Under the pieces are notes generated by a model, which worked only from the letters and a program-made list of their open reading frames with translations, was not told the DNA's origin and searched no databases. Of a stretch of 64,000 nt of DNA, positions 4,425 through 54,660 are shown piece after piece; position 1 is the first letter of the stretch, and each line of letters starts with the position of its first letter. Origin of the DNA: Alphaproteobacteria bacterium (GTDB taxonomy: Bacteria; Bacteroidota; Bacteroidia; Bacteroidales; FEN-979); contig SACF01000001.1 of the NCBI GenBank assembly GCA_009928665.1, positions 124,001 through 188,000 of the forward strand, given 5' to 3'. A program made the translations under genes and the position numbers.

Positions 4425-5939
4425 CTATTCTTCCTTTTGTACCTTCCAGGAATCCTGGCGCTCCCTGGCTTTCCGGTCCCACTCCACCGGGATACTCTTA
4501 ATCCATCCTGCCTTTTCTGCGTTCACGATTTCCATTTCAAGACCAATGTACTTCTGAGCGAGCGCTTTGGTAGCAATATCGGGATAAGGAACTTCCCGGT
4601 TCATGCCGTGACCGGCCAGGACCCTTGCAAGCAGGATCCGCGCCTCTTTCGATTCACTGATTGACAGGCCGATGATTCTTGAGACTTCAACCGGTGAATG
4701 AAACGCATTTCCATGGCCTGCTGCAGAATAATCCCAATACCACTGCGCGTTACGGATGTGCTGAAGAGCCGGATCCATCTCCTGCTGTGTGGCTCCCGAT
4801 TCCCATGCAATTTTTGCTTCCACGTGCGCCCTTACCAATTCAATCTCCGATTGATCCCGGATTTCCTTTACTTTTCGCTGACGTTCGTATACATTGTTTT
4901 TCAGGGTCTCTTCCGATTCACGGTGACAAACCTGGCATGTGTTCGAAATATTGAGCAACGGACTGGCAATTTTATGGCTGGTAAACTTTTGTCCGCCTTC
5001 CTTGACATACGGCATATGGCAGTCGGCACATGCAACGCCGCGCTGGGCATGGATCCCCGTTAAATAAACTTCATAATCCGGATGTTGGGCCTTCAGGATG
5101 GGAGACTTGCTGAGCTGGTGGGTAAAATCGGTAAAGCCATGGGAATTATAGTACTTCAGAGCGCTGTCGGCCGTGAGCCCAAGGCTCCAGGGAAAGGTCA
5201 GATAGGCAACATCCGGGGAATCGGCCCGCTTTTTATCAAAATAATACTCCACATGACACTGTGCGCAAACCAGCGACCGCATCTCCTGGTGCGTTGCTTT
5301 TGAGATATCCTTCCCCATCGAATTGAATGCCTCAACCAGTGCCGGCCGGGTGATCCTGAGATCCATGGTCTTAGGATCGTGACAATCAGCACAACCGATA
5401 AAATTGACCACCTCAGCACCTTTTGCCGCCCATTTCCCTTTATAAAATCCCGCCGCACCCATTTTTTCCATTAACCGGGGAACATCGGGACTTTTACAAG
5501 TCCAGCAGGTATTGGGCTGGGGACCGTCGTCAGGACCTTTGGGAGTTCCTGTCCTCAGTGTGTTACGGATGTCGGTAATCGCATAATAATGTCCGCGGGG
5601 CGCTTTGTAATCCTTCGAAAAAGCATATCCGGCCCAAAGGATTACCATCCTTGGATCTTTGCCAAGCGCGTCGCTCACAGCATTCCCGTTAAATTCGCTG
5701 TGAAACGAAGTGTCGGCTGTCGTGAGATAGCTTTGATATTCCCTGGGAAAATTCTCCCCCCAAAGATCATTCCGGGGTTCATATTCACTCAGGTTCACTT
5801 TCGGCTTATAAACATATTCCGATTCGGCTTTCCGCTGGGTAATGGAAGAAGCCAGTAATCCCAGAAGAAAAACAATTATCATGGTTCCGAAAAACAAAGC
5901 CCAGTTAATCCAGGGTGCACGTTTTTTTGTTGTATCCAT
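4425..5939 (-). CDS. nrfA: Ammonia-forming cytochrome c nitrite reductase, catalytic subunit
   Basis: NrfA reduces nitrite to ammonium with six electrons in the periplasm. The catalytic haem has the diagnostic CxxCK motif (CWTCK, residues 145-149); four CxxCH motifs follow (CADCH, CAQCH, CADCH, CQVCH), giving five haems. The active-site stretch CAQCHVEYYF and the HMPY segment are present. I chose ATG 5939 (504 residues) over the in-frame ATG at 6008 because MDTTKK leads directly into the N-terminal membrane segment (residues 12-32). The gene follows nrfH by about 105 bases. Dissimilatory nitrite ammonification is the expected role; NrfA can also reduce NO. Confidence 0.97.
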   Translation of the reverse strand: MDTTKKRAPWINWALFFGTMIIVFLLGLLASSITQRKAESEYVYKPKVNLSEYEPRNDLWGENFPREYQSYLTTADTSFHSEFNGNAVSDALGKDPRMVILWAGYAFSKDYKAPRGHYYAITDIRNTLRTGTPKGPDDGPQPNTCWTCKSPDVPRLMEKMGAAGFYKGKWAAKGAEVVNFIGCADCHDPKTMDLRITRPALVEAFNSMGKDISKATHQEMRSLVCAQCHVEYYFDKKRADSPDVAYLTFPWSLGLTADSALKYYNSHGFTDFTHQLSKSPILKAQHPDYEVYLTGIHAQRGVACADCHMPYVKEGGQKFTSHKIASPLLNISNTCQVCHRESEETLKNNVYERQRKVKEIRDQSEIELVRAHVEAKIAWESGATQQEMDPALQHIRNAQWYWDYSAAGHGNAFHSPVEVSRIIGLSISESKEARILLARVLAGHGMNREVPYPDIATKALAQKYIGLEMEIVNAEKAGWIKSIPVEWDRKARERQDSWKVQKEE

Positions 5940-6044
5940 CTGTATTGAATTTTGATTGTTCTTTAAGGTGTATTGACAATTCCTTGTGATCGGGTTCTGA
6001 AAACCCATTTTCTACCTGCCATTATCATTTTAACCCTTTCGGAA

Positions 6045-6626
6045 TCATTCATCGTCCTTCTCATCCTCCCGCGCTGTCCGGTTTTCCATCTTCGTCTTTA
6101 CCAACGCACCGGGAGTTGAGGCAATGCTGTTTACCCTTTTGTGCGGCGTTTCACGGTGGCAGTCGGCACAGCGCCGTTGCTGAAGATGATTGGAAAAATC
6201 TGGCTGAACGGACCCCAAAAACTGCATCCCGGTAGCCCGTTCATGGCACCTGATACAGTTTGCCTGTACCGCGTTCTTCCCGGCTTCCCGGATGTAAATA
6301 GCGTTGGGTTCGTTTCGTAATGTAAAAATGGTGGCATGCCGCAATCCATCTTGCGCCTTGAACCAATATTTGTTGAAAATATTGTCGTGTGGAACATGAC
6401 AATCGTTGCAAACCGCTACGTTGCGATGAGAACTGTGCGCCCAGTCATTGAACTGGGGATTCATTACATGGCAATTAATACAGGTTTCGGGATTATCGGA
6501 AAGATAGGAAACAGCCCGCGAAATATACAAGGCATAAGCCCCCAGACCAAAAAAAATGCCCAGCAAGACCGCGACGGTGGGCTTCCACTGTTCAGGGGGG
6601 ACCAGCCAAAGGAAAATCTTCTTCAT
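6045..6626 (-). CDS. nrfH: Cytochrome c nitrite reductase small subunit, membrane quinol dehydrogenase
   Basis: This 193-residue NapC/NirT-family tetrahaem protein takes electrons from menaquinol and hands them to NrfA. It has one N-terminal membrane helix (about 18-36) and four haem motifs: CINCH (49-53), CNDCH, CIRCH and CADCH. The first haem motif is followed by VMNPQF, containing the Met that serves as an unusual haem ligand in characterised NrfH. It is the first gene of the nrfHA operon, with its own promoter candidate at 6652-6683. The C-terminal tail is charged. Confidence 0.96.
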   Translation of the reverse strand: MKKIFLWLVPPEQWKPTVAVLLGIFFGLGAYALYISRAVSYLSDNPETCINCHVMNPQFNDWAHSSHRNVAVCNDCHVPHDNIFNKYWFKAQDGLRHATIFTLRNEPNAIYIREAGKNAVQANCIRCHERATGMQFLGSVQPDFSNHLQQRRCADCHRETPHKRVNSIASTPGALVKTKMENRTAREDEKDDE

Positions 6627-16872: not shown

Positions 16873-19131
16873 TTACAGTTTTATATAATCCTTTTTAAGT
16901 GACCACCCTCCCTTTAATCCAAAAATGAACCATGCCAAAGCAAGCGCCCCCAATGTAAAGACTGTGTCACCGATTACCCGTAACCACTTGAAAGTTATGA
17001 TCAGGGGATCCTGAAGAAATTCAGCCGAACGGGCATACCACATGCCGTTCTTTACACTTACCCAGGTCTGTGCAAGCCCTACTGGCAATACACTTAGCAA
17101 TACCATCAACGCCAATCCGATATTTATGGACCAGAAGGCAAAACGAATCCATTTTGAATTCCACACTTTCCCGGGATCCATGCTTTTCAGCACAAACAAC
17201 ATCAATCCAATTCCCAGCATCCCGTAAACTCCGAATAAAGCGGTATGTCCGTGAACCGGGGTCGTGTTCAATCCCTGCATGTAATACAACGCGATCGGCG
17301 GATTAATCAAGAATCCAAAGATACCGGCTCCTACGAGGTTCCAGAAGGCCACGGCGAGGAAGAACCAAATCGGCCACCGATATCCCTCAATCCACGCCCG
17401 GCTTTTTGATATCTTGAAATTTCCATAGCCTTCATACCCCATCAATACCAGGGGAACTACTTCAAGGGCCGAGAAGGTGGCTCCAATGGCGAGTATCGCT
17501 GTCGGGGTGCCTGTAAAATAAAGATGGTGAAAAGTACCCATTATCCCGCCAGAAAGAAAGATTATCGTGGAAAATAATACACTCGATGTGGCTGTTGCAA
17601 CCCTTATCAAACCGAGACGGACAAACAGAAAGGCAATGGCAACAGTGGCAAAAACCTCGAAGAAACCCTCCACCCAAAGGTGGACGACCCACCAACGCCA
17701 GTATTCAGCAACAGCAAGATGCGTCTGACGGCCCCACATCAGTCCGGCTCCGTAAAAAGCAGCAATGGCGATGGAAGAAATGATGAACATGGTTAAAAGA
17801 GACCGGTTTTCGGAACGTTGTTTAAATGCGGGCGCTAAACCTCTTCCCATGAGAACAAGCCATATGACCAATCCAACAAACAGAAAAATTTGCCAGAACC
17901 TTCCCAGATCAACATATTCATACCCCTGGTGCCCGATCCAGAAATTCTGAACCAACCCAAGCTTCTGCATGACACCGTACCATTGTCCCGCCAATGAACC
18001 GACAACAATGATCAATAAAGCAATAAAAAGAAAATTCACACCCAACGCCTGATACTTGGGTTCCTTACCTGCAACGGCAGACGCCAGATACAAACCGGTT
18101 GCAAGCCATGAAGTGGCAATCCAGAAAATCGCCAGTTGAACATGCCAGGTACGCGAAATAGAATAAGGCAACCATTCCGATAAAGGTAAACCGTAAAATG
18201 CCTGGCCCTCCACTCCATAATGAGCCGTGATCGCCCCCATCAGGATTTGAACAAGAATCAGGGCCGTGACGATCCAGAAATACTTCAGTGTGGCTTTCAT
18301 TGATTGGGTCTGAATTCCACCCAGCAAAGGATCTGTAGCCGGCATCTCATGACCAGCCAAACCCTCTTCCTTTCGTGAAGCATAATACCAAACCATCAGA
18401 CCGATTCCCGCAAGTAACATAATTACGCTGAACCCGGTCCATAAAATCAGTGAACTCGTAGGCTTATTATCAACCAACTCATCCGACGGCCAGTTGTGGG
18501 TGTATGAAATATCAGATCCGGGACGGTTCGTTACACAGGACCAGGCTGTCCAGAAAAAAAAGGCATTCATTTTATCCATCCTGCTCAGATCCTTGATAGA
18601 GTTCGGTGGTATGGCATAATGATCGCGCAAGGTATCATACGCCCGATCGTTCATGAAAAGACCGGAGTAATGTTGTCCCACGGCCTCAATGGCCTTTGCC
18701 CTGAGTGGAGAAACAACAATTCGTCCGCTTGACGGATTATAGGTATTTATACGCATCTCCTGCTGCAACCTGACCCGGAGCATCGCCTGTTGTTCGGGTA
18801 ATATTTGATTGTAGGGTTTGTGAAACGTTGTATCAGAAAGGTAATTCAGAATATACTCCGATTCCCGGTGAAGCCAATCGGCCGACCAGTCTGGAGCGAC
18901 GTATGAACCATGTCCCCATACGGATCCGACTTCCTGCCCCCCGATAGACTGCCAGATGTTCTGTCCATCTTTTATATTTTGACCCGTGAATAAAACCGAA
19001 CCATCGGTAGTGACGACCGATTCGGGAATGGGTGGCGCCTGCCGGTATATTTCCCGGCCATAGAAAAGAAGCACTGCAAAAGAGACCACCATGACGGTGA
19101 TAAATCCAAACCATAGTTTTTTTGTCTTCAT
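16873..19131 (-). CDS. norZ: Quinol-dependent nitric oxide reductase (single-subunit qNor)
   Basis: The 752-residue protein reduces 2 NO to N2O using quinol. The first membrane helix (about 5-25) is followed by a periplasmic NorC-like domain without a CxxCH haem site (GQNIKDGQNIWQSIGGQEVGSVWGHGSYVAPDW), the hallmark of qNor. The rest is a 12-helix haem-copper-type NorB core with the conserved His ligands in WVVHLWVEGFFE, FHHLYFTGTP and PVHGHTALFG. Length matches the family. It is the central enzyme of the operon 20121-14946 and detoxifies NO, for instance that arising from nitrite respiration by NrfHA. Confidence 0.96.
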   Translation of the reverse strand: MKTKKLWFGFITVMVVSFAVLLFYGREIYRQAPPIPESVVTTDGSVLFTGQNIKDGQNIWQSIGGQEVGSVWGHGSYVAPDWSADWLHRESEYILNYLSDTTFHKPYNQILPEQQAMLRVRLQQEMRINTYNPSSGRIVVSPLRAKAIEAVGQHYSGLFMNDRAYDTLRDHYAIPPNSIKDLSRMDKMNAFFFWTAWSCVTNRPGSDISYTHNWPSDELVDNKPTSSLILWTGFSVIMLLAGIGLMVWYYASRKEEGLAGHEMPATDPLLGGIQTQSMKATLKYFWIVTALILVQILMGAITAHYGVEGQAFYGLPLSEWLPYSISRTWHVQLAIFWIATSWLATGLYLASAVAGKEPKYQALGVNFLFIALLIIVVGSLAGQWYGVMQKLGLVQNFWIGHQGYEYVDLGRFWQIFLFVGLVIWLVLMGRGLAPAFKQRSENRSLLTMFIISSIAIAAFYGAGLMWGRQTHLAVAEYWRWWVVHLWVEGFFEVFATVAIAFLFVRLGLIRVATATSSVLFSTIIFLSGGIMGTFHHLYFTGTPTAILAIGATFSALEVVPLVLMGYEGYGNFKISKSRAWIEGYRWPIWFFLAVAFWNLVGAGIFGFLINPPIALYYMQGLNTTPVHGHTALFGVYGMLGIGLMLFVLKSMDPGKVWNSKWIRFAFWSINIGLALMVLLSVLPVGLAQTWVSVKNGMWYARSAEFLQDPLIITFKWLRVIGDTVFTLGALALAWFIFGLKGGWSLKKDYIKL

Positions 19132-20242: not shown

Positions 20243-20641
20243 TTATATATAGGACCGCAGGGTCTGTTCCTGTAAGAACTTTTTAAATTCAGCGGTCAGT
20301 TTATTTACAACATTCCCCATCACACATTTATCAAAACCACAAACATCATAGGATAAGGGACAATCTCCCATTTCCAGACTTCCTTCGATCGACTCGTAAA
20401 TATCAAGAAGGGATATCAGGGCAGGATCCTTTTTTAATGAAAAACCACCCGATGGCCCCCGCACGGATTTTAACATACTATTTTTGACCAACCTTTGCAA
20501 TACCTTGGCAATGTGATTTTTTGAGAATCCGGTGGTCTCGGCAATTTTCACTGCATTGATTCCGTTTTCCGATTTTGCGATCAGAACCATGCTGTGAATC
20601 GCAATTGAAGCAGCTTCAGATAATGCAAAAATTTTAGACAT
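20243..20641 (-). CDS. Rrf2-family transcriptional regulator (NsrR-like)
   Basis: The 132-residue protein has the Rrf2 winged helix (VKIAETTGFSKNHIAKVLQRLVK; wing RGPSGGFSL) and three cysteines, Cys94, Cys101 and Cys106, in the usual position for an Fe-S cluster. NsrR uses such a cluster to sense NO, and the location directly upstream of the qNor operon supports that role over IscR. An operator candidate overlaps its own transcription start, so autorepression is likely. The name NsrR is inferred from context, so no symbol is given. Confidence 0.87.
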   Translation of the reverse strand: MSKIFALSEAASIAIHSMVLIAKSENGINAVKIAETTGFSKNHIAKVLQRLVKNSMLKSVRGPSGGFSLKKDPALISLLDIYESIEGSLEMGDCPLSYDVCGFDKCVMGNVVNKLTAEFKKFLQEQTLRSYI

Positions 20642-45129: not shown

Positions 45130-45143
45130 TTGATTTTTATCAA
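45130..45143 (+). promoter_or_regulatory. FNR-type box in the promoter of the Crp/Fnr gene
   Basis: TTGATTTTTATCAA is a perfect TTGAT-N4-ATCAA site. It overlaps the -33 TTG (45130-45132), a position expected to give autorepression, and is identical in half-sites to the box at 45974. Confidence 0.72.
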
Positions 45144-45159
45144 TTTTATTCTATATTTG
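45130..45159 (+). promoter_or_regulatory. Promoter of the Crp/Fnr regulator
   Basis: TTG (45130-45132), a spacer of 19 bases and TATATTTG (45152-45159) make an excellent Bacteroidetes promoter. Transcription would start near 45166, 26 bases before ATG 45192. Confidence 0.7.
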
Positions 45160-45191
45160 TGAAACCAGTAATTGGGAACTATTAGAAAGGA

Positions 45192-45887
45192 ATGGTAAAT
45201 AAAAACACATTTGCTTCAAACTGTGTTGATTGTAATTGCAAATCATCCATATTTAAACATCTTAGCCATCCCGAACTTGACATTATCAGTAATAGTAAGT
45301 TTCAGGTTGTATATAAGGCAGGTGAAATCATTTTTAAACAAGGTACCCCCTCTCCGTATTTTGTCTGTATAACATCAGGATTAGTAAAGATTTACATCGA
45401 AGGTTATGGTAAAAATCTAATTCTGGGATTAGTGAAACCCGTTGATTATATATTTGGACCCGGAATATATGTTGACAACCGGCATCATTATTCTGCGGCA
45501 GCCGTTGAGGATTGCACGGCCTGTTTGATCGATGTAAATGTATTTAAAAGACTGATCCGGGAAAACCCTGACTTTGCTGATGAGTTTATCAAAAGAGTGT
45601 CATTGCAGGCGATTTTCAATTTTGAACAAGTGATCAGTCTGACTCAAAAGCAAATGCCCGGTCGCATTGCTGATGTGCTTTTTTATCTGTCCGAAAAAAT
45701 CTATTGCCAAAATCCTTTTGAATTGTCAATTACCAGGCAAGATCTCGCTGACCTCTCCGGAATGTCAAAAGAAAGCGCTATACGGATTTTAAAAGAATTT
45801 AAGGAAGAGGGTGTGTTAACACTTCATGGAAATCATCTTGAAATACTGAATATCAAACAACTACGCCATATTAGTGAAAAAGGGTGA
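45192..45887 (+). CDS. Crp/Fnr-family transcriptional regulator
   Basis: The 231-residue protein has a cyclic-nucleotide-type beta-barrel (about 30-130) and a C-terminal helix-turn-helix (about 180-215: ITRQDLADLSGMSKESAIRILKE). The recognition helix keeps the E-x3-R spacing of Crp/Fnr. Cysteines at 11, 14 and 16 plus 108 and 111 could hold an Fe-S cluster as in FNR, but many Bacteroidetes relatives have similar cysteines without proven clusters. FNR-type boxes lie in its own promoter and before the next operon, so it probably controls that operon in response to oxygen. Confidence 0.88.
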   Translation: MVNKNTFASNCVDCNCKSSIFKHLSHPELDIISNSKFQVVYKAGEIIFKQGTPSPYFVCITSGLVKIYIEGYGKNLILGLVKPVDYIFGPGIYVDNRHHYSAAAVEDCTACLIDVNVFKRLIRENPDFADEFIKRVSLQAIFNFEQVISLTQKQMPGRIADVLFYLSEKIYCQNPFELSITRQDLADLSGMSKESAIRILKEFKEEGVLTLHGNHLEILNIKQLRHISEKG

Positions 45888-45973
45888 TCTCTTCTCTATA
45901 TTTTTGTGATCCCAGCTATCCGAATTTTTAATTAATTAGTTCAGTATCCGTCCATTTTACCAATATCAAATGA

Positions 45974-46009
45974 TTGATATATATCAATGTGTTCCTTGAT
46001 ATATATCAT
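45974..46009 (+). promoter_or_regulatory. Tandem FNR-type boxes upstream of the cytochrome cluster
   Basis: TTGATATATATCAA (45974-45987) is perfect, and TTGATATATATCAT (45996-46009) differs by one base from the same palindrome. Their centres are 22 bases apart, two helical turns, so two dimers could bind on one DNA face. They lie roughly 76-98 bases before the expected transcription start. Confidence 0.75.
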
Positions 46010-46064
46010 GTTGTTCTTTGGTAAATCTCACGCTGTAACAAATAGTATTACCTGCATTCTTAGA

Positions 46065-46072
46065 TACATTTG
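46065..46072 (+). promoter_or_regulatory. Candidate -7 element of the cytochrome cluster
   Basis: TACATTTG fits TAnnTTTG, giving a start near 46079 and a leader of about 60 bases to ATG 46138. The -33 region lacks TTG, consistent with a promoter that needs an activator. Confidence 0.55.
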
Positions 46073-46137
46073 CTTCTATGTTATTTGCACAATACATGAA
46101 TAGCGAATAATTGTTTATTAACTAAAACTGTAACATT

Positions 46138-47226
46138 ATGAAAAGAATTAAACAATTGATTTTTACTGCAGGATTGGTGTGCTCTGTTGTAATGATCATT
46201 TTCACGGCCTGCACTAAGGAAGGTCCTCAGGGGCCAGCCGGTCCGGCCGGAAAAGATGGTACGAATGGCACCAATGGTAAAGATGCCAATGCTACTTGCA
46301 CCCAATGCCATAACTGGAGTGACAGCCTGGTTACGAAAATCTTCCAGTATGACGCTTCCCGCCACTCATTGGGCGAAACGACATTTGAAGGCACCCGTAC
46401 CTCATGCGCTCCATGTCATACAAGTCAGGGATTTGTGGAGTGCGCCTCAACTGGTTCCGATACCACTGCCGCCCCAGTTTATGATGCAGCCCAAATCAAT
46501 TGCCGCACTTGTCATAAAATCCATAAGACGTACACAAACAATGACTGGGAACTTATCGTCACTTCAGGATTCAATCCGCGTTATGATAAAACGGTTACGA
46601 TCGACCTTGCTGCTGATGGTGGAGGATCCAATCTCTGTGCACGGTGTCACCAGCCGCGAACCACTTCCCCCTGGCTGACAAACCCTTCCAGCACCACCGA
46701 TTCATTGAAACCTACCAGCAGTCGGTGGGGCCCGCATTATGGAGCGGCAGGTGTCGTTTTTGCCGCTAAGGGTGCATTTGAGATTGGAACATCCGCATTC
46801 AGGTCGACAAATCATAAGGATGCATTGTCCTGTGCCACTTGTCATCAGGCACAAGCCCAGGGAGCCCTGGTCGGCGGCCATTCCCTTTGGATGTCGAATG
46901 AAGAAGAAGGAATTAAAAACAATGTCAGTTGCAAATCAGCGGGATGCCACTCCTCCCTCGGAAACAATACATTTGACGTCAATGGCAAGGAAACGGAAAT
47001 TGCCGGTATGATCCAAACCTTGAAGGTCAAATTGGCCGTAGCAGGAATGCTTGATACCAATACAAATAATCTGAAAACTGGTAAATGGTACAAACAAAAA
47101 CAATTAGCTGTATTCTGGAATTATAAGCTTGCTTTCTACGATAAAAGCAATGGAATTCACAACTACCTGTATACTTACGACATGCTTCAGTCTGGCATTG
47201 ATTATATGGCGAGCCTTGGATATTAG
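46138..47226 (+). CDS. Hexahaem c-type cytochrome lipoprotein with collagen-like stalk
   Basis: The 362-residue protein has a lipoprotein signal (acylated Cys25 in IFTAC). Seven Gly-X-Y triplets follow (residues 29-49, rich in PQ, PA, KD and TN), which is a collagen-like stalk. The body has five CxxCH motifs (CTQCH, CAPCH, CRTCH, CARCH, CATCH) and one CX4CH (CKSAGCH), so up to six haems. No close family was recognised. Exposure on the outer membrane is inferred from the lipid anchor and stalk. It is the first gene after the FNR-type boxes, and a terminator follows it. Confidence 0.83.
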   Translation: MKRIKQLIFTAGLVCSVVMIIFTACTKEGPQGPAGPAGKDGTNGTNGKDANATCTQCHNWSDSLVTKIFQYDASRHSLGETTFEGTRTSCAPCHTSQGFVECASTGSDTTAAPVYDAAQINCRTCHKIHKTYTNNDWELIVTSGFNPRYDKTVTIDLAADGGGSNLCARCHQPRTTSPWLTNPSSTTDSLKPTSSRWGPHYGAAGVVFAAKGAFEIGTSAFRSTNHKDALSCATCHQAQAQGALVGGHSLWMSNEEEGIKNNVSCKSAGCHSSLGNNTFDVNGKETEIAGMIQTLKVKLAVAGMLDTNTNNLKTGKWYKQKQLAVFWNYKLAFYDKSNGIHNYLYTYDMLQSGIDYMASLGY

Positions 47227-47242
47227 GGTATTATAATAGATA

Positions 47243-47277
47243 AAAAGGCTTCAGGGGTCCTTCTCTTGAAGCCTTTT
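47243..47277 (+). terminator. Hairpin terminator/attenuator after the hexahaem gene
   Basis: An 11-bp stem AAAAGGCTTCA/TGAAGCCTTTT encloses a 13-base loop, 17 bases after the stop, and ends in a T-run (TTTTATCTT). It is likely to let more transcript of the first gene accumulate than of the genes beyond. Confidence 0.8.
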
Positions 47278-47350
47278 ATCTTAATGTCAATTTGAACTTC
47301 AAATGCTTATGCACATTATTTTTATTTCAATCAATACAAATCTTCTCCGT

Positions 47351-47737
47351 ATGCAAAAGAAAACATTATTTAATCTTGCGTTTGTGCTCATTGGTTTGTT
47401 TATCCTTATCTCTTGTGAATACGCCATTATAACCCCCGATGTGCCACCTCCTCCCCCACCAGGCGATTCCACCTCCTTCTCACTAAAAATCCAACCAATA
47501 TTTGACAATCTTACTTGCGCCCGCGCTGGATGCCATAATGGCAATGTCGCCCCGGACCTCAGATCGGGTAAATCCTATCAAAGCTTAATGGAGAGCAAAA
47601 TGGTCGTTCCATTCCGACCGGAAGAAAGTATTTTGTATACATGCCTGCTTTCAGGTGGCGTAATGGCTTCATATGGCAATCCTACTGACAATTCAACCAT
47701 AAAGTATTGGATTGAAGAAGGAGCCAAGAATAATTAA
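47351..47737 (+). CDS. Small haem-c lipoprotein with polyproline stalk
   Basis: From ATG 47351 (128 residues) a lipobox LISC (Cys22) is followed by a six-proline run (32-37) and a compact domain with CARAGCHNG, a CX4CH haem site in the setting usual for planctomycete-type/DUF1549-like small cytochromes of Bacteroidetes (APDLRSGKSYQSL; then a late Met in GGVMASYGNP). It probably sits in the outer membrane beside the DUF5777 barrel encoded next. The spaced CX4CH motif is shared with the sixth haem of the preceding protein. Confidence 0.75.
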   Translation: MQKKTLFNLAFVLIGLFILISCEYAIITPDVPPPPPPGDSTSFSLKIQPIFDNLTCARAGCHNGNVAPDLRSGKSYQSLMESKMVVPFRPEESILYTCLLSGGVMASYGNPTDNSTIKYWIEEGAKNN

Positions 47738-47774
47738 TCCACTGAAGAATCATTAATATTTAATATTAATAAAT

Positions 47775-48716
47775 ATGCACAAAATTTATCATCCTATCAA
47801 ACTGATTCTGCTAATACTGGTTTTCACATTAACCACCGTTGGGGTCAATCAGGCACAAGATTCTATTCCGGTAGAACCTGTATTAACAAAGAAACCACTC
47901 GCAAAAGCACCATTCGAAAGCGGTATATGTATGGACATTCAGACTGTTGTGGTTCAGCCTGCCAAGACACTGGAATTCGTTCTTCAACACAGGTTTGGTA
48001 CCATTCAAGGTAATTGGAGTGATCTCTTCGGTATTTGGGGGGCTTCAAACATTCGACTCGGATTGAACTTCAGTATTACAAATAACCTTCTTGTTGGTCT
48101 TGGAACTACAAAAAATAACCGTTTACAGGATTTGCAGATCAAATATACTTTTCTGCGCCAACGACAAGGAGGATTCCCACTCACCATTTCTGTTTATGGT
48201 GATTATGCCTTGAACGCCTTGGGAAAGGATTTTTATGGTGCCGGTTATAAATTCGTCGACCGGTTTTCATTCTATCATGAATTCCTTTTTGCCAGACGAT
48301 TTTGTAACTATTTCTCAGCCCAGCTCGGACTAAGCTATACCCATTTTAATAAAGTTGACCGTACCGTTGACTCCACGGCAATGAACGACGCGCTTGCTTT
48401 TGCCCTGCTTGCACGTTTTAAGCTGAGCCCGCAGTCTTCCATTGTGTTATCCTATCAACAGCCCGTCATTGTTAATTATGATCCGGCATTCGTTGTTAAG
48501 TACCCAAATCATTGGCTGGAAATTCCGAAAAACAAAGCCCCCTACCCAAATATCTCTTTGGGATGGGAGGTTTCAACCAGCACACATGCATTTCATTTGT
48601 ACTTATCTGCTGCCCAAGGGATCATTCCTTCAGAAATGGTGATGAACAATGAAAATAATTTCTTTAATGGTTTTATCCTGGTTGGATTTAACCTTACACG
48701 ATTGTGGAATTTTTAA
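47775..48716 (+). CDS. DUF5777-family outer-membrane beta-barrel protein
   Basis: The 313-residue protein has a signal peptide (cleavage near VNQAQ) and alternating amphipathic strands: TLEFVLQHRFGTIQ, LGLNFSITNNLLVGLGTT, QLGLSYTHFN, FALLARFKLSPQSSIVLSYQQ and a C-terminal FILVGFNLTRLWNF ending in Phe, typical of an outer-membrane barrel. The match to DUF5777 is by these signatures. In Bacteroidetes this family often sits beside cytochrome genes. Here it could be the pore through which haem lipoproteins pass electrons, but that is inference. Confidence 0.8.
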   Translation: MHKIYHPIKLILLILVFTLTTVGVNQAQDSIPVEPVLTKKPLAKAPFESGICMDIQTVVVQPAKTLEFVLQHRFGTIQGNWSDLFGIWGASNIRLGLNFSITNNLLVGLGTTKNNRLQDLQIKYTFLRQRQGGFPLTISVYGDYALNALGKDFYGAGYKFVDRFSFYHEFLFARRFCNYFSAQLGLSYTHFNKVDRTVDSTAMNDALAFALLARFKLSPQSSIVLSYQQPVIVNYDPAFVVKYPNHWLEIPKNKAPYPNISLGWEVSTSTHAFHLYLSAAQGIIPSEMVMNNENNFFNGFILVGFNLTRLWNF

Positions 48717-48744
48717 TTTTATCATTCTCTAAAAACAATTGCAT

Positions 48745-49161
48745 ATGAAAACAACAAAAAAAATCACAACCGTATTAATTCCGGTTATTATCTCGGTGTT
48801 TTTACTGGCCGGTAATTTGGCAACAGCACAACAATTAAAACCAAAACCATGGCCAGTTCCTGACAAGGATAAAAACATTAAGACTCCCGGGAAAGCTGAT
48901 CTGGCAGTCGGTAAAGAACTCTGGGCCAAACACTGCAAATCATGCCATGGCAGCAAAGGATTGAGCGATGGACCAAAAGCTGCTTCTTTGAAGACCTTTG
49001 CAGGTGATTTTTCCACCGCTTCATTCCAGTCAGCTACTGATGGTGAACTGTTTTATCGTACCAATAAGGGTCGGGACGAAATGCCGGCATATGAAAAGAA
49101 AATCCCGGATGCCAATGATCGTTGGGCGTTGGTTGCTTACATGCGTACTATGAAAAAATGA
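48745..49161 (+). CDS. Periplasmic monohaem cytochrome c
   Basis: From ATG 48745 (138 residues) a signal peptide (cleavage near ATAQQ) is followed by one class-I cytochrome c domain: haem motif CKSCHG (64-68), and a distal Met in DEMPAYEKKI. It is a small soluble shuttle that could link the inner-membrane complex encoded downstream with the outer-membrane haem proteins upstream. Confidence 0.88.
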   Translation: MKTTKKITTVLIPVIISVFLLAGNLATAQQLKPKPWPVPDKDKNIKTPGKADLAVGKELWAKHCKSCHGSKGLSDGPKAASLKTFAGDFSTASFQSATDGELFYRTNKGRDEMPAYEKKIPDANDRWALVAYMRTMKK

Positions 49162-49261
49162 TGTCATGCCATATGACTGATTTTCAATAAAGGGTGTTGT
49201 GGGTCAAATAGCCTCGACACCCTTTGTCATTCCTGATTTAATTTTTCAAACTATTCACTTT

Positions 49262-50281
49262 ATGACTTACGAAGCAAATGTCAGACCTGCCTGGATCGTG
49301 TTGGTTCTCTTATTACTCTTTATTTTGGCATATACTGTACTTAATGACTCCCCATTGATTCAGTCCATTTCGAACCCACCCAAACAAAATATATCGAAGA
49401 AGGGACTTTCAAACTTTAAAAATTCGGAAGAAAATGAGATGTGCCTGAAATGTCATGGCCAGTCCAAGTATTCATATACCAATAAAGAAAATGGAAAAAT
49501 CATAGTCAAACGAATGTATGCTGAGGCGATTGTGAATAGAGATGATTTTTATGCCTCCAACCATCGTGAATTCAAATGTACGGATTGTCATTCCGAAGAT
49601 TACATTACATTTCCCCATTCTGGTGATTTACGAATGGAAGCAATTGCCACTTGTGTCGATTGTCATGGTGGCGATGAAAAATATGCCAAATTCCAATTTG
49701 AAACTATCGACACTGCTTTTATGGCCAGTGTCCATTCACAAAAACACAGCGAAGAATTTACTTGCTGGATGTGCCACGATCCGCATACCTATAAAATTAA
49801 TGCACGGACTACTGAAAATTTAAAAGAAACTATTACCTATGACAATCTGATTTGCCTGAATTGTCATGGAGATAATAACAATTACCAGTTATTATCCAAT
49901 AAACCCAATCCGAACCTTCTTCAAAAACATGATTGGCTTCCAAATCAATCTTCCCACTTTACCAATGTCCGCTGCATTGAATGTCATACCCGAAACGAAG
50001 ACACTTTGATCGTTGCACACTTTATTACTCCAAAAAATCAAGCTGTTAAGAAGTGTGAATCCTGTCACTCTAAAAATTCAATTCTGTATGCGTCCCTTTA
50101 CAAACATCAAATCAAACAGAATATCGAGAAGGTAGGTATTATTAAAGGACTGTTTTTCAGTGAAACAGCCTCAATTGGGCCGGATCGTAATAACAGTTTG
50201 AATTTATTAAGTTTTCTTATCATGGGATTGACTGTCATTGCCATTTGTATCCATGTATTTTTACGAATTAAAAACAAATAA
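49262..50281 (+). CDS. Heptahaem membrane-anchored c-type cytochrome
   Basis: From ATG 49262 (339 residues) the protein has one N-terminal membrane helix (about 10-28), seven CxxCH motifs (CLKCH, CTDCH, CVDCH, CWMCH, CLNCH, CIECH, CESCH) and a C-terminal helix (about 312-333), so the haem domain is held in the periplasm at both ends. It resembles the multihaem partners of NrfD/cytochrome b complexes (Hmc- or Dsr-type) more than NapC/NirT. It is separated from the cytochrome b gene by 7 bases. Confidence 0.87.
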   Translation: MTYEANVRPAWIVLVLLLLFILAYTVLNDSPLIQSISNPPKQNISKKGLSNFKNSEENEMCLKCHGQSKYSYTNKENGKIIVKRMYAEAIVNRDDFYASNHREFKCTDCHSEDYITFPHSGDLRMEAIATCVDCHGGDEKYAKFQFETIDTAFMASVHSQKHSEEFTCWMCHDPHTYKINARTTENLKETITYDNLICLNCHGDNNNYQLLSNKPNPNLLQKHDWLPNQSSHFTNVRCIECHTRNEDTLIVAHFITPKNQAVKKCESCHSKNSILYASLYKHQIKQNIEKVGIIKGLFFSETASIGPDRNNSLNLLSFLIMGLTVIAICIHVFLRIKNK

Positions 50282-50288
50282 TTAGACA

Positions 50289-50915
50289 ATGAATAACCAT
50301 TCATCTGAACGACTTTATTTATATCCTTTATGGATCAGGATATGGCATATGATTAATGCTGTTCTGTGCCTGATACTTATTATTACCGGACTTAGCATTC
50401 AGTTCTCAAATCCAAGTGTGGTGGTGAAATTCAAAACGGCTATCTCTGTACATAATATTGCAGGGGTTCTTTTAGCGATAAACTATATTGCTTTTTTTAT
50501 CGGTAATCTGTTCACAACAAATGGACATCATTATATCATGCCTGTAAGGGGGTTTTTTAAAAGATTGATCATTCAGATTCGCTATTATACAATTGGTATT
50601 TTTAAAAAGGAGAATCCTCCATTCCCAATAACCCCGGATCAGAAGTTTAATCCATTACAGCAATTCACATACGTTGCCACGATGTACTTACTTGTTCCGT
50701 TGATTGTCCTTTCCGGGTTTGGTTTGTTGTATCCCGAAATGACATTGAAAAGTCTTTTAGGGGCTAGTGGGCTGGAATTGACTGATTTTCTGCATGTGAC
50801 TGTGGGTTTTTTCATCACCTTGTTTATGTGCATACATATCTATTTCTGCACCATTGGCAAAACCCCGGCCAGTAATTTTAAAAGTATGATCAATGGGTTT
50901 CATGAATCACATTAA
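50289..50915 (+). CDS. Cytochrome b (cytochrome b/b6 or thiosulfate-reductase-type membrane subunit)
   Basis: The 208-residue protein has four membrane helices (about 15-40, 50-75, 125-150, 165-195). His20 (RIWHMINAV) and His55 (AISVHNIAGV) on the first two helices and the histidines in ELTDFLHVTVGF and FMCIHIYFCT on the last are the expected haem b ligands of PF01292 proteins. It should link quinol to the heptahaem cytochrome encoded just upstream. It is 11 bases ahead of the ferredoxin gene. Confidence 0.86.
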   Translation: MNNHSSERLYLYPLWIRIWHMINAVLCLILIITGLSIQFSNPSVVVKFKTAISVHNIAGVLLAINYIAFFIGNLFTTNGHHYIMPVRGFFKRLIIQIRYYTIGIFKKENPPFPITPDQKFNPLQQFTYVATMYLLVPLIVLSGFGLLYPEMTLKSLLGASGLELTDFLHVTVGFFITLFMCIHIYFCTIGKTPASNFKSMINGFHESH

Positions 50916-50926
50916 ATAACCAAATC

Positions 50927-51883
50927 GTGAAGGAACAATCAAAAAATAAATCGACTCGTCGGGCATTTCTGAAACAGGGATTGGTCGCCGGTGCCGGAAT
51001 TGCCGCTGGAACCGGTTTGATTTCATCGCTTCTCGATGCCCGAACATCGGAATCGGTAGAAAAAGTGAAAGTAATGACCACGGACGGCCAAATTAGGGAG
51101 GTTGATAAAGCACAGTTAAAACTTCCGCGAGTTTCCAGAGAGGAATCCCATTACGGAATTCCCGGAAGAAAATTTGTAATGGTGATTGACCTGGCTAAAT
51201 GTAAAAATGCCAGAAAATGTGTTGAGGCTTGCCAGAAAGGGCATCACTTGCCGAAAGGACAGGAATTTATGAAAATTTATTTACTACAGGATTCTGATAA
51301 AACATCCCCCTACTGGTTCCCCAAACCATGTTTTCATTGCGATAACCCGCTTTGCGTCAGTGTTTGTCCCGTTGGCGCCACCTATAAAAGAAGCGACGGT
51401 ATCGTCCTGGTTGACAATGAACGCTGCATAGGATGTAAATTTTGTATGACCGGTTGCCCGTATTCCTCACGTGTTTTTGCATGGAAACATTACCCTGAAT
51501 TTGACGAAGATAAAGAACCCTACTCTCCTGAGGCCGGCAGTCCTGGAAAAGAAGGAACGGTCTCAAAATGTGATTTCTGCCCCGATCTTATCCGGGTAGG
51601 AAAAGTCCCTTACTGCGTTTCAGCCTGCCCAATGGGAGTCATCTATTTCGGCGACATCGATGAAGACACCGTGACCAATGGAACCGATACCTTTCAGTTC
51701 AGTCAACTGATAAAGGACAGGGCCGGTTATCGTTACCTTGAAAATTTGGGTACCCGGCCTTGTGTATATTACCTGCCCCCCGTCGACCGTCAATATGATG
51801 TAAGCCTTGGATTTGGTGATTTGAATGAGGAGATTAAAAACAGATATAATGAGACCCCCTATGTCAAAAAACACAAACCCTGA
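50927..51883 (+). CDS. Tat-exported four-cluster ferredoxin (PsrB/HybA/DsrO-like)
   Basis: The 318-residue protein starts at GTG 50927 and has a Tat signal (STRRAFLKQG). Cluster motifs in order: CKNARKCVEAC (Cys92, Cys98 and Cys102, with Ala95 where the second Cys should be), CFHCDNPLCVSVCP, CIGCKFCMTGCP, and CDFC...CVSACP. Fifteen of the usual sixteen cysteines are therefore present, and the first cluster may be [3Fe-4S] or altered. It would transfer electrons between the NrfD subunit and a cytochrome or reductase. The next gene begins 2 bases after its stop. Confidence 0.9.
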   Translation: MKEQSKNKSTRRAFLKQGLVAGAGIAAGTGLISSLLDARTSESVEKVKVMTTDGQIREVDKAQLKLPRVSREESHYGIPGRKFVMVIDLAKCKNARKCVEACQKGHHLPKGQEFMKIYLLQDSDKTSPYWFPKPCFHCDNPLCVSVCPVGATYKRSDGIVLVDNERCIGCKFCMTGCPYSSRVFAWKHYPEFDEDKEPYSPEAGSPGKEGTVSKCDFCPDLIRVGKVPYCVSACPMGVIYFGDIDEDTVTNGTDTFQFSQLIKDRAGYRYLENLGTRPCVYYLPPVDRQYDVSLGFGDLNEEIKNRYNETPYVKKHKP

Positions 51884-51885
51884 TT

Positions 51886-53205
51886 ATGGAAAGTGATAAA
51901 AATATATTATTGAAAGAATTTGCCCCCCAGCTTAACCGTACTGGCCCCTGGGGCTATGCCTGGATTTCGTTTCTTATTGCCGTGATCTGTCTGGGCATTG
52001 TTGCATTTTTCTTTCAGGTCCTACGGGGCCATGAGGTCACAGGAATGCGAGATAATGTCGTTTGGGGCATCTATATTGTAAATTTTATTTTCTTTATGGG
52101 TATAAGTTACGCCGGAGCATTAATTTCGGGCACCTTACATTTATTTCGGTCCTCCTGGCGAAAACCCATTATCAGGATGGCAGAATTTATTACTATCATT
52201 TCTTTGTTGATTGGCCCTTGCTTTATTCTGTTATGTATTGGCCGACTTGACAAACTTCATTATCTTGCAATTTTCGGAAGGATCCAATCACCGATTACCT
52301 GGGATGTAATTGCGATCTCTACAGATATATTTGGCTGCTTGATTTTTCTGTACCTGGCTTTATTAAGGGATCTGGCGACCCTTCGGGACGATGATATTAT
52401 CAAACTTTCAAAATGGAGAAAAAAACTCTATAAGATTCTCGCACTGGGCTATACGGGAACCCCCGAACAACAGCTCCGTTTGAACCGTGCCACAGATGTT
52501 ATGGCTGCTATGATCATTGCAATTGCCATTATTGTATATTCGGTTCTGGCCTGGATTTTTAGTGTCACCCTACAACCAGGTTGGCATAGTACTATTTTCG
52601 GCCCCTATTTCGTAATTGCCGCCGTATACTCGGGAAGTGCCGTATTAATTTTATCCATGTGGCTTTTTCGCAAAATTTACCATCTTGAGAATTATATTAC
52701 AAAAAAGCATTTTGTTTCCGTTGGAGTGATTATGTTGGTTTTAGCCGCATTTTACGGGTACTTTACTTTTTCCGACTATCTTACAAAATGGTACGGTTCA
52801 GAAAAAAATGATGAGTTACTTATTCGCTTATTGTTTAATGAGTACTATTGGTATTTCATTATTTCAAACTATATTGGAGTACTGTTGCCTCTCATCGTGG
52901 TTGGGATACCAAAATTGCGGACTATAACCAATATTACGATCACCTCGGTTGTTGTTATCATTGCACTCTGGTTAAACAGGTATCTGATTGTTGTACCAAC
53001 TTTGGAGTCGCCTTATTTACCGATACAGGATTCCAGGCCGGAGTGGTTGAATTACGGTGCCACCTGGATTGAATGGAGTCTTACAGCTGCCGGAGTTGCC
53101 GTGTTTAGCCTACTCTTTACCCTTGCTTCAAAGTTTATCCCGATTGTTCCCATATCGGGACTTCATCATGATTTAGAGGATAAAAAAGAGGGAATTTTAG
53201 CATAA
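51886..53205 (+). CDS. NrfD/PsrC/DsrP-family quinol subunit
   Basis: The 439-residue inner-membrane protein has about nine or ten helices. NVVWGIYIVNFIFFMGISYAG is the conserved NrfD motif, and the pattern of a Gly-rich first region, RPI-type loop and long C-terminal helices (WYFIISNYIGVLLPLIVV) fits DsrP/PsrC. Such subunits bind quinol and contact the periplasmic FeS protein, encoded just upstream. No catalytic molybdopterin subunit is encoded here. Confidence 0.89.
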   Translation: MESDKNILLKEFAPQLNRTGPWGYAWISFLIAVICLGIVAFFFQVLRGHEVTGMRDNVVWGIYIVNFIFFMGISYAGALISGTLHLFRSSWRKPIIRMAEFITIISLLIGPCFILLCIGRLDKLHYLAIFGRIQSPITWDVIAISTDIFGCLIFLYLALLRDLATLRDDDIIKLSKWRKKLYKILALGYTGTPEQQLRLNRATDVMAAMIIAIAIIVYSVLAWIFSVTLQPGWHSTIFGPYFVIAAVYSGSAVLILSMWLFRKIYHLENYITKKHFVSVGVIMLVLAAFYGYFTFSDYLTKWYGSEKNDELLIRLLFNEYYWYFIISNYIGVLLPLIVVGIPKLRTITNITITSVVVIIALWLNRYLIVVPTLESPYLPIQDSRPEWLNYGATWIEWSLTAAGVAVFSLLFTLASKFIPIVPISGLHHDLEDKKEGILA

Positions 53206-53230
53206 ATAAAATATTTGATATTTGATCCTT

Positions 53231-54139
53231 ATGAAAAAACATATTTCACCTTACAGGATTTCTCTGATACTTTTATTTTCTCTGGTTTTTGTGCCCGATT
53301 CATTTTCGGAAAAAACAACTGATTCAGTGACTGTTCCGGAAACAAGACTCTCCCTAAACTACGTTTGTAACGCTAATGATTCTGTAACATTGTCGGCGAC
53401 ACTCAGTGTTAAACGCGATATGACTATCAAATATCTGGGAAATGCATCACTCTTCTTTTATACTTCCGACGGTTTAAATAAACGTCTTGCTGGTCAGGCC
53501 AAAACTGATTCTGAAGGGAATTCCAAAATAACCATTTCATTATCAAACCTTACAGGAGACCAACAGGATATCATTCACTATACGGTTGAATTTTGTGCTA
53601 CGGGGATCTATTCGGCAGCAACCGCTGAATTTAACGCAAAACTTGCCAGCCTCCAGCAATCGTTCATCATGGAGGATTCACTTCGTGTTTTAAGGATATC
53701 GGCAACAGAAAAGAGTACCACAGGAAAAGAAATTCCTATTCCCCAGGTTACTGTTAACATTTATATTCCAAGGCTTTTCAGTTTGCTTAAAATTGGAGAA
53801 ATAACACTTGATGATTTGGGAGGGGGTACAATGGAGTTCCCAAAAGAACTTATTGGTGATTCATTAGGAAATCTCATCGTTATTTCTAAAATAGAGGAGC
53901 ATGATCAGTTTGGAACAGTACAGGTAATGAATTCAATAAATTGGGGGATCCCTAAACATTATATTTATGCTGAAGGACCTTCGCGTGAATTGTGGACTCC
54001 AATTGCTCCTCTCTGGATGATTATTACACTGGTCATTTTACTTGTCGGGGTTTGGGCACATTACATTTATGCCATTTATGAACTGGTCATGATCAAACGC
54101 CACAATAAAAAGCGAGAGGCGATCAGTCCGGCGGTTTAA
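53231..54139 (+). CDS. Periplasmic protein with C-terminal membrane anchor, unknown function
   Basis: From ATG 53231 (302 residues; the in-frame TTG 53222 is a poorer start) the protein has a signal peptide (to about 27), a beta-rich body with Ig/fibronectin-like spacing (SVTLSATLSVKRDMTIKYLG, LSNLTGDQQDIIHYTVEF) and a C-terminal membrane helix (about 270-292, LWMIITLVILLVGVWAHYIY) followed by a basic cytoplasmic end. It has no haem or Fe-S motif. I do not recognise the family. Its place directly behind the NrfD gene suggests an assembly or stabilising subunit of the same complex. Confidence 0.65.
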   Translation: MKKHISPYRISLILLFSLVFVPDSFSEKTTDSVTVPETRLSLNYVCNANDSVTLSATLSVKRDMTIKYLGNASLFFYTSDGLNKRLAGQAKTDSEGNSKITISLSNLTGDQQDIIHYTVEFCATGIYSAATAEFNAKLASLQQSFIMEDSLRVLRISATEKSTTGKEIPIPQVTVNIYIPRLFSLLKIGEITLDDLGGGTMEFPKELIGDSLGNLIVISKIEEHDQFGTVQVMNSINWGIPKHYIYAEGPSRELWTPIAPLWMIITLVILLVGVWAHYIYAIYELVMIKRHNKKREAISPAV

Positions 54140-54162
54140 TTTCTCCGTAGTTTTGTACCAGC

Positions 54163-54660
54163 ATGAGAAAGAAAACCGTTAAACCTTCACTTTTAAAATT
54201 ACTCACTTCCGGCAATGTAAGAAAAGCAAAACTGTTGTTGGGATCGCTCTATACCATTTCGGGTAAAGTTATCCATGGAAACCATTTGGGAAGAAAAATT
54301 GGATTTCCTACGGCCAATCTTGAAATTGATAATAACTGTTATGTACTCCCGGCTCCAGGGGTCTATGCCGTACTGACTCAGATAGAAGAGCATGAATATC
54401 CCGCAATGGCAAATATTGGTTACCGACCTACTTTCAATGGTAATGTTCTTACAATTGAAGTTCATGTTTTCGACTTCCAACAAGACATTTACGAAAAAAT
54501 CATAAAAGTATCATTCGTCGATCGGATCAGAGATGAAATCAAATTCCCCAAAGTAAATCTCCTGATAGATCAATTAAATCAAGACCGAAAAATCGCTAAA
54601 GAATTAATCGTACGATGGAGTAACCCTGATACCGACACCACAAACGCCTTCGGTCTGTAA
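54163..54660 (+). CDS. Stand-alone riboflavin kinase (RibF C-terminal domain only)
   Basis: The 165-residue protein contains the flavokinase barrel: YTISGKVIHGNHLGRKIGFPTANLE, GVYAVL, ANIGYRPTF and the helical C-terminus. The first 30 residues (LLKLLTSGNVRKAKLLLG) match the linker that, in bifunctional RibF, joins the FAD-synthetase domain to the kinase. The nucleotidyltransferase domain is missing, so FMN but not FAD synthesis is expected. A TAnnTTTG match (TAGTTTTG, 54148-54155) lies just before the start. It shares 57 bp with the convergent gldH end. Confidence 0.85.
   Translation: MRKKTVKPSLLKLLTSGNVRKAKLLLGSLYTISGKVIHGNHLGRKIGFPTANLEIDNNCYVLPAPGVYAVLTQIEEHEYPAMANIGYRPTFNGNVLTIEVHVFDFQQDIYEKIIKVSFVDRIRDEIKFPKVNLLIDQLNQDRKIAKELIVRWSNPDTDTTNAFGL

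Follow-up and report, generated by a model that had tools for sequence, protein, structure and literature searches.

Gene content of the operon

The window, which is the whole stretch of 64 kb analysed here, comes from a relative of the Bacteroides of gut and sediment and contains ten genes on the same strand, tightly packed behind a gene encoding a Crp/Fnr-family regulator, with intergenic gaps of 3-77 bp among the ten (Table 1). The gene set and its positions are as an earlier note on this DNA had listed them.

Table 1. Genes and regulatory sites of the operon (positions within the window).
Feature	Position	Strand	Basis or remark
FNR-type box TTGATTTTTATCAA	45130..45143	+	zero mismatches; 5' of regulator gene
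Crp/Fnr-family regulator gene	45192..45887	+	profile search; precedes the ten-gene set
FNR-type box TTGATATATATCAA	45974..45987	+	zero mismatches; 5' of hexahaem gene
Second FNR-type box	45996-46009		one mismatch; 3' of box 45974-45987, ahead of hexahaem gene
Hexahaem lipoprotein, collagen-like stalk	46138..47226	+	haem motifs, alignment
Mono-haem lipoprotein (CX4CH), Pro-rich spacer	47303..47737	+	motif, relatives
DUF5777 outer-membrane beta-barrel	47775..48716	+	PF19089, E=7e-64
Soluble periplasmic mono-haem cytochrome c	48745..49161	+	profile search; one haem motif
Heptahaem membrane cytochrome, one TM helix at either end	49199..50281	+	profile, motifs
Di-haem cytochrome b, b561/PhsC-like (Ni_hydr_CYTB, PF01292)	50289..50915	+	profile search
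Tat-exported FeS protein, DsrO/NrfC-like	50927..51883	+	Fer4_11, twin-arginine start
NrfD-type membrane quinol subunit, DsrP-like	51886..53205	+	profile search
Membrane protein: periplasmic domain, single C-terminal TM	53231..54139	+	always behind NrfD
Riboflavin kinase domain only	54163..54660	+	matches the kinase domain of RibF; FAD-synthetase half absent

Sites with zero mismatches to TTGATNNNNATCAA are found only twice in the window, one ahead of the regulator gene and the other ahead of the hexahaem gene. Among relatives, an FNR box is located ahead of the regulator in 28 of 35 loci (about 1.5 expected) and ahead of the hexahaem gene in 29 of 43 loci (about 2 expected), and the boxes do not recur ahead of the other genes tested. 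FNR binds its [4Fe-4S] cluster through four cysteines; in this regulator C11, C14 and C111 are invariant across relatives, and C16, the third N-terminal cysteine, is not conserved. The exact boxes in the window and their recurrence in relatives argue for FNR-type control, which the earlier note had claimed and which is probable from these sites.

Conservation of the operon among relatives

Among the 25 family loci, from genomes which are all draft or MAG-like, the genes encoding the mono-haem lipoprotein, the barrel, the heptahaem cytochrome and the cytochrome b are each kept in 24, and the cytochrome c gene in 23. The order hexahaem lipoprotein, mono-haem lipoprotein, DUF5777 barrel, cytochrome c, heptahaem cytochrome and cytochrome b is shown by 23-24 of the 25, and by most loci from other families of Bacteroidales. 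The search for co-occurrence that had been proposed shows a set conserved across tens of genomes, far beyond chance. The riboflavin kinase gene closes the operon in 23 of the 25 family loci, and the genome analysed here contains a second, longer RibF (a 309-residue frame) elsewhere. Some loci show additional genes: a haem protein with a T9SS tail is encoded between the two lipoprotein genes in L094/L025 and L095, the hexahaem gene of L029/L179 is followed by one for a barrel-like protein whose N-terminal part has a CXXCH, and a fusion of a 19-haem cytochrome with cytochrome b adjoins the operon in L114. In L180-L182, L184 and L185, homologues of the hexahaem gene are at the end of larger clusters that encode ImcH or multihaem-b proteins together with a barrel-sized protein and one cytochrome each of 12-14 and 7-9 haems. 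No description of an operon of this kind in Bacteroidales was found in the literature searched.

Outer-membrane and periplasmic proteins

The hexahaem lipoprotein shows five CX2CH motifs and one CX4CH, the latter being the sixth motif (a small correction to the earlier description), and six additional invariant histidines in the alignment, exactly as many as the haem motifs, so that each haem can be bis-His. Profile searches against the PDB match 6i5b, NrfA and octahaem nitrite reductases in the C-terminal third, or the C-terminal half of the latter two, and also 6qvm, an S-layer undecahaem cytochrome. The first of these matches raise the reading that catalysis takes place in this lipoprotein, as in reductases of the NrfA or octahaem nitrite reductase kind, and that the remaining genes supply it with electrons. 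We consider it improbable, since the alignment contains only the six CXnCH motifs and no CXXCK catalytic motif, the histidine count equals the haem count, the fold search against the PDB is weak with its best hit to an S-layer electron-transfer cytochrome (E 0.012, TM 0.44), and the window already encodes a separate NrfHA outside the operon.

The mono-haem lipoprotein probably starts at 47351, where its relatives begin. Neither lipoprotein shows, on reading of its sequence, a classical acidic surface-export signal after the lipoprotein cysteine. The DUF5777 barrel is modelled with 12 strands (pLDDT 83) and resembles the diffusion channels OmpG, NanC and KdgM; on this model an MtrA-like haem wire would not fit through it. 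DUF5777 barrels are present in about 40% of the Bacteroidota genomes sampled, and the pair of barrel and mono-haem lipoprotein is widespread in Bacteroidota without multihaem genes, so the pair may serve another task. The barrel HMM gives no match to the larger barrel-sized proteins of 423-458 residues or to the fused haem-barrel proteins from other families, and the literature searched contains no mention of DUF5777. The soluble cytochrome c shows an invariant Met113 in the alignment.

Quinol modules at the inner membrane

The heptahaem cytochrome probably starts at 49262, where its relatives begin, and contains seven CX2CH motifs and seven additional invariant histidines in its soluble part. 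The cytochrome b shows four TM segments by hydropathy and the invariant residues H20, H55, H169 and H183, and the FeS protein 15 conserved cysteines in the alignment. The earlier note had likened the inner-membrane part to one Hmc/Dsr-type complex. The operon shares with Hmc and DsrMKJOP the combination of NrfD, Tat FeS protein, cytochrome b and multihaem cytochrome, but it has no DsrK/HmcF, and no such cytosolic ORF is found among its genes, as that note had also said. Furthermore, the FeS protein scores 171.9 bits against a DsrO cut-off of 200 and the NrfD protein 77.5 bits against a DsrP cut-off of 350. The module formed by the FeS protein, NrfD and the membrane protein is missing from five loci of the family, and the cytochrome b and heptahaem pair is not seen in locus L178, which carries two NrfD modules. 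The two are separate quinol modules, each absent from some relatives, and their independent loss together with the sub-cut-off scores speaks against a single Hmc/Dsr-like complex.

Reductases and oxidases

No molybdopterin gene is found near the operon in 36 relative loci, the PhsA-type protein of this genome used as a query against all loci gives none beside the operon, and the two MopB-family proteins of the genome are on other contigs, which speaks against a molybdopterin partner beside the operon. Entry of electrons from quinol into the periplasm with no catalytic reductase among the operon genes, as first proposed, is supported by this result and by the equal numbers of haems and additional invariant histidines in the hexahaem and heptahaem proteins. 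The MtrB_PioB profile shows no match above cut-off in 61 genomes, and this genome contains no MtrB-type porin.

NrfD, the FeS protein, and the multihaem and soluble cytochromes c are also parts of the kind found in alternative complex III, and haem-copper oxidases are present in most genomes of the family; the operon could then supply cytochrome c to an oxygen-reducing oxidase. This is very improbable, because no haem-copper oxygen reductase is found in this genome, where the sole COX1-family match is a nitric oxide reductase, or in G304, and both keep the operon, which disfavours oxygen respiration as its task. The FNR boxes also speak against it. We know of no outer-membrane part in alternative complex III.

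Link to ImcH

ImcH, the Geobacter quinol oxidase for extracellular respiration, is defined by a length of 495-519 aa, three TM at the N-terminus, a single CX3CH and six CX2CH (PMC6295460). Homologues are encoded inside the operon in L147-L149, and in L109, where the gene is broken by N, and beside it in L115, L116, L118 and L128. Those of L115, L116, L118, L128 and L147-L149 have 497-504 aa, and their three TM, single CX3CH and six CX2CH match the published definition exactly. Unlike these relatives, the genome of the window (G000) shows no ImcH match. Quinone oxidoreductases such as ImcH have been named among the best genomic markers for extracellular electron transfer (PMC12977616).

Proposed route

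The operon is best read, with a probability of roughly 60%, as an FNR-controlled anaerobic respiration operon which passes menaquinol electrons to an acceptor that lies at the outer membrane or further out. Quinol would be oxidised by two alternative modules, cytochrome b with the heptahaem cytochrome (CbcBA/CbcL-like) and the FeS protein with NrfD and the membrane protein. Either would reduce the soluble mono-haem cytochrome c of the periplasm, and from there electrons would go to the mono-haem and hexahaem lipid-anchored outer-membrane cytochromes, acting with the DUF5777 barrel. The flow is presumably outward, the lipoproteins may reach the cell surface, and the acceptor would be a mineral, humics, a flavin or other shuttle, or a partner cell. 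Of the quinol-to-cell-surface conduit proposed in the earlier note, the quinol entry stands and the link to extracellular respiration is strengthened by the ImcH homologues in relatives; the genes of its outer-membrane part, a barrel with two haem lipoproteins, are all present, but the barrel as a haem-wire conduit is doubtful with 12 modelled strands. With such a barrel, a Cyc2-like mode, with a mono-haem cap and a small soluble partner, donor or acceptor, that enters the pore, appears likelier than an MtrAB-like one.

Alternatively, the lipoproteins might face the periplasm, anchored in the outer membrane's inner leaflet, and their acceptors would be small soluble compounds (flavins, humic-like molecules, N or S oxyanions) let in through the barrel, with no electron crossing. 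The likeness to diffusion channels, the missing export signal, the additional riboflavin kinase and the proposal that Cyc2 admits its substrate into a small pore (PMC8406198) are consistent with this arrangement, but extracellular acceptors are indicated by the ImcH homologues and by the porin-type multihaem clusters associated with the hexahaem family, and a T9SS-tailed haem protein is located within some operons; we regard it as rather unlikely. Quite improbable is inward uptake, in which Fe(II), corroding metal or a partner cell would donate electrons to quinone for use by NrfHA and nitric oxide reductase: proteins of the CbcL/MtrH/MtoC type are known for both directions of electron flow (PMC6295460), and NrfHA and qNOR share the window with the operon, but a 2018 survey found ImcH homologues only in Fe(III) reducers (PMC6295460), although the present genome is without ImcH.

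Comparison with known systems

The outward route, in its cytochrome b and heptahaem pair, resembles CbcBA/CbcL of Geobacter sulfurreducens in having a multihaem c-type periplasmic part and a small membrane part of the di-haem b type, in lacking a reductase, and in having genes that adjoin those for extracellular respiration, a likeness of architecture; it differs in its genetic setting, alongside DUF5777 genes for the outer membrane and a regulator of FNR type. MtrCAB and Pcc conduits also show a barrel and an outer-membrane multihaem lipoprotein in one operon, but the barrel here has 12 modelled strands against 26 in MtrB, with no multihaem cytochrome for threading it and no MtrB homologue. 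In Cyc2 a single haem is likewise paired with a small barrel, fused in one protein, whereas here haem and barrel are in separate genes (47303-47737 and 47775-48716), with a hexahaem protein in addition. The barrel-like CXXCH protein of L029/L179 is a further point of likeness to Cyc2.

It is possible, though doubtful, that Bacteroidota have an outer-membrane electron gate of their own, in which a small DUF5777 barrel and a mono-haem lipoprotein cap form a split counterpart of Cyc2, coupled in anaerobic lineages to a hexahaem terminal cytochrome and exchangeable quinol modules (CbcBA-like, NrfD-like, ImcH). Retention of the operon in dozens of relatives suggests an undescribed respiration on something outside the cell in a large bacterial group. 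Sediments, groundwater, digesters and electrode biofilms harbour many Bacteroidota. Some members have been associated with electron export for which no pathway is described, and a conserved operon marked by FNR boxes is a concrete genetic target. The operon also offers a natural experiment: one outer-membrane set with three quinol-oxidising modules, of the kinds used by Geobacter at different redox potentials. The uncharacterised Bacteroidetes_1 anode cluster, from a MAG enriched 39-fold on the anode, contains six multihaem cytochromes and one barrel (PMC8258643); it has more multihaem genes than the operon of the window and is closer to L180-L185.

Composition of the operon and other respiratory genes

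The region 45130-54660 shows a gene encoding a Crp/Fnr-family regulator followed by ten genes on the same strand, with intergenic gaps of 3-77 bp; the ten genes are those that the earlier note had described, and the set is conserved in relatives. The best reading of this operon, with a probability of about 0.6, is a route from quinol to the outer membrane without a reductase, which keeps the proposal of that note with two corrections: the quinol modules are separate and the barrel is small. The source genome is a 4.77-Mb draft of 389 contigs, with a completeness of 97.7% and a contamination of 6.9%; the contig that holds the window measures 277 kb, and a second MAG, Bacteroidales bacterium STF2_223 (locus L024), shows the same operon with 95-100% protein identity. 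Since a longer RibF frame is present on another contig, the kinase-only copy of the operon is an extra one; a role in supplying FMN, whether for use as a cofactor or as a shuttle, is a guess. The window also contains NrfHA and a quinol-type nitric oxide reductase, which take electrons from quinol by separate routes of their own. The latter is the sole COX1-family match in the source genome, and genome G304, which keeps the core operon, shows no COX1-family match. Genes of the cytochrome c assembly proteins ResB and CcsA adjoin the hexahaem gene or the core in L117, L118, L122 and L124.

Table. Features of the window and of loci of relatives (L-numbers)
Feature	Position	Strand	Remark
NrfHA, ammonia-forming nitrite reductase pair	4425-6623	-	
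Quinol-type nitric oxide reductase	16873-19128	-	
Rrf2-family regulator	20243-20638	-	near nitric oxide reductase
Gene 1, hexahaem lipoprotein	46138-47226		collagen-like stalk
Gene 2, mono-haem lipoprotein	47303-47737		
Gene 3, DUF5777 barrel	47775-48716		
Gene 4, soluble cytochrome c			
Gene 5, heptahaem cytochrome	49199-50281		TM helix at each end
C-terminus of gene 5 product	50189-50281		invariant His352 and Arg356
Gene 6, b561-type cytochrome b	50289-50915		
Gene 7, Tat-exported FeS protein			
Gene 8, NrfD			
Gene 9, one-TM membrane protein			
Gene 10, riboflavin kinase domain			
Barrel-like protein with N-terminal CXXCH	L029:11568-12860	-	directly after hexahaem gene; Cyc2-like layout, no Pfam match
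Barrel-like protein with N-terminal CXXCH	L179:8011-9234	-	directly after hexahaem gene; Cyc2-like layout, no Pfam match
EB_dh-family lipoprotein	L178:10053-11285		between hexahaem and mono-haem lipoprotein genes

Conservation and quinol modules

The co-occurrence that the earlier note proposed to check was found for most of the set, kept in 20-24 of the 25 loci of the same family whose downstream sequence reaches 5 kb or more: the mono-haem lipoprotein, barrel, heptahaem cytochrome and cytochrome b are present in 24, the soluble cytochrome c in 23 and NrfD in 20. Among eleven loci from the order's other families, nine contain the first four and two the NrfD module. No MopB-type gene was found in the relatives' loci with the PhsA-like protein of the source genome as probe. 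The NrfD module is missing from the operon in five family genomes with long flanks, four of which (G304, G306, G323 and G327) retain cytochrome b and the heptahaem cytochrome. No NrfD match exists anywhere in the G304 genome, G323 shows just a distant one at 34% identity, and the NrfD proteins of G306 and G327, 55-61% identical, are encoded on other contigs. Locus L178, which belongs to a different family of the class, contains, in this order, genes for the hexahaem lipoprotein, a haem-bearing EB_dh-family lipoprotein, the mono-haem lipoprotein, the barrel, the FeS-NrfD-membrane protein module, the soluble cytochrome c and a second such module; the heptahaem cytochrome and cytochrome b were not found at this locus. 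Because of these two patterns, the hexahaem and mono-haem lipoproteins, barrel and soluble cytochrome c are read from gene content as a constant outer part, and the inner-membrane part as exchangeable. The cytochrome b-heptahaem pair, the FeS-NrfD-membrane protein module and, in relatives, ImcH would be alternative quinol modules serving this outer part. A single Hmc/Dsr-like inner-membrane complex, as first suggested, is not supported, because the modules vary independently; the FeS and NrfD proteins also fall below the DsrO and DsrP cut-offs. The EB_dh-family lipoprotein of L178, similar to the haem subunit of ethylbenzene dehydrogenase, shows a CX3CH motif.

Haem cytochromes

The six haem motifs of the hexahaem family are matched by exactly six other invariant His (H76, H129, H200, H226, H248 and H341); the heptahaem family has seven motifs, seven invariant His in its soluble part and one more, H352, within the TM at the C-terminus. 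Since further His equal haem motifs in number, every haem of both proteins can, from sequence, be bis-His. Profile hits of the hexahaem family fall in the C-terminal third of NrfA, of octahaem nitrite reductases and of the S-layer undecahaem cytochrome 6qvm, which is also its best fold match, a weak one (E 0.012); surface cytochromes of that organism are described as taking part in ferrihydrite reduction (PMC7829351). A reductase role is unlikely for the hexahaem lipoprotein because its family contains no CXXCK motif. The invariant His352 and Arg356 of the heptahaem cytochrome, in or at the C-terminal TM helix, lie beyond the seven His needed for its haems, and possibly contact cytochrome b. 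Within a single orthologous family, mono-haem lipoproteins show differing haem motifs: CXCH in six, CX2CH in 20, CX3CH in one and CX4CH in 12, including the window. The CXCH cases belong to genus g147 (L097-L100, L103 and L104) and would represent an unusual haem motif or a lost haem.

Outer-membrane barrel

The DUF5777 barrel was modelled with 12 strands (pLDDT 83), closest to the OmpG, FapF, NanC and KdgM channels, whereas MtrB has 26 strands round a decahaem wire (PMC12133095). No MtrB-type porin was found in the operon or the source genome. Of the outer-membrane conduit claimed earlier, the presence and conservation of the barrel stand, but the 12 strands of the model do not fit a threaded haem wire. 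Of 247 Bacteroidota genomes sampled, 98 contain DUF5777, and a similar mono-haem lipoprotein lies within 1.5 kb of 24 of 30 inspected DUF5777 genes, often with YceI, so the two are an old, general pair, here joined to a multihaem chain. This recurring unit is seen across Bacteroidota in L033-L062. A useful comparison for the separate pair is Cyc2, a 16-strand porin in which one haem is thought to plug the periplasmic mouth (PMC8406198). The pair may either move electrons or let a small acceptor in.

Regulation

Only two exact TTGATNNNNATCAA sites occur in the 64-kb window: the one at 45130 precedes the regulator gene and the one at 45974 the hexahaem gene; weaker sites of this type are as numerous as expected by chance. 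If up to one mismatch is allowed, 28 of 35 loci of relatives show a site upstream of the regulator, where shuffled sequences predict 1.5, and 29 of 43 show one upstream of the hexahaem gene, where they predict 2.0; for the barrel, heptahaem cytochrome, cytochrome b, FeS protein and asd genes, only 0 or 1 loci each have such a site, about the shuffle level. This recurrence at two genes and not at the others supports the earlier claim of FNR-type control. C11, C14 and C111 of the regulator are retained in nearly all relatives, but conservation does not extend to its third N-terminal Cys, which leaves a full FNR cluster only likely. In L116, the core and an NrfD-cytochrome c-ImcH set are on opposite strands, with one Fnr-type regulator gene each.

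Relationship to extracellular respiration

In genus g142 of the same family (L147, L148, L149 and L109, the last broken by unread bases), an extra gene between the membrane protein and riboflavin kinase genes encodes a protein of 497-504 residues with three N-terminal TM segments, one CX3CH and six CX2CH, exactly the make-up that defines ImcH homologues (PMC6295460). The same ImcH-type gene adjoins the core in L115, L116, L118 and L128, and a 19-haem/cytochrome b fusion does so in L114. By make-up, the window's pair of heptahaem c and di-haem b is likened to CbcL, a kind with nine c haems and a di-haem b (PMC9129911); CbcBA is said to act near -0.2 V (PMC12307469). A T9SS-tailed CXXCH protein, located between the hexahaem and mono-haem lipoprotein genes in L094/L025 and L095, hints at secretion to the surface; it is absent from the window, whose two haem lipoproteins show no clear surface-export signal. 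In other families (L180-L182, L184 and L185), larger clusters with genes for ImcH or a multihaem-b protein, a barrel-sized protein (about 423-458 residues), and 12-14-haem and 7-9-haem cytochromes have a hexahaem homologue as their last gene or close to it. These clusters recall the uncharacterised one of an anode-enriched Bacteroidetes MAG, with six multihaem cytochromes and one barrel (PMC8258643). Rieske and cytochrome b genes are seen in the clusters of L180 and L182.
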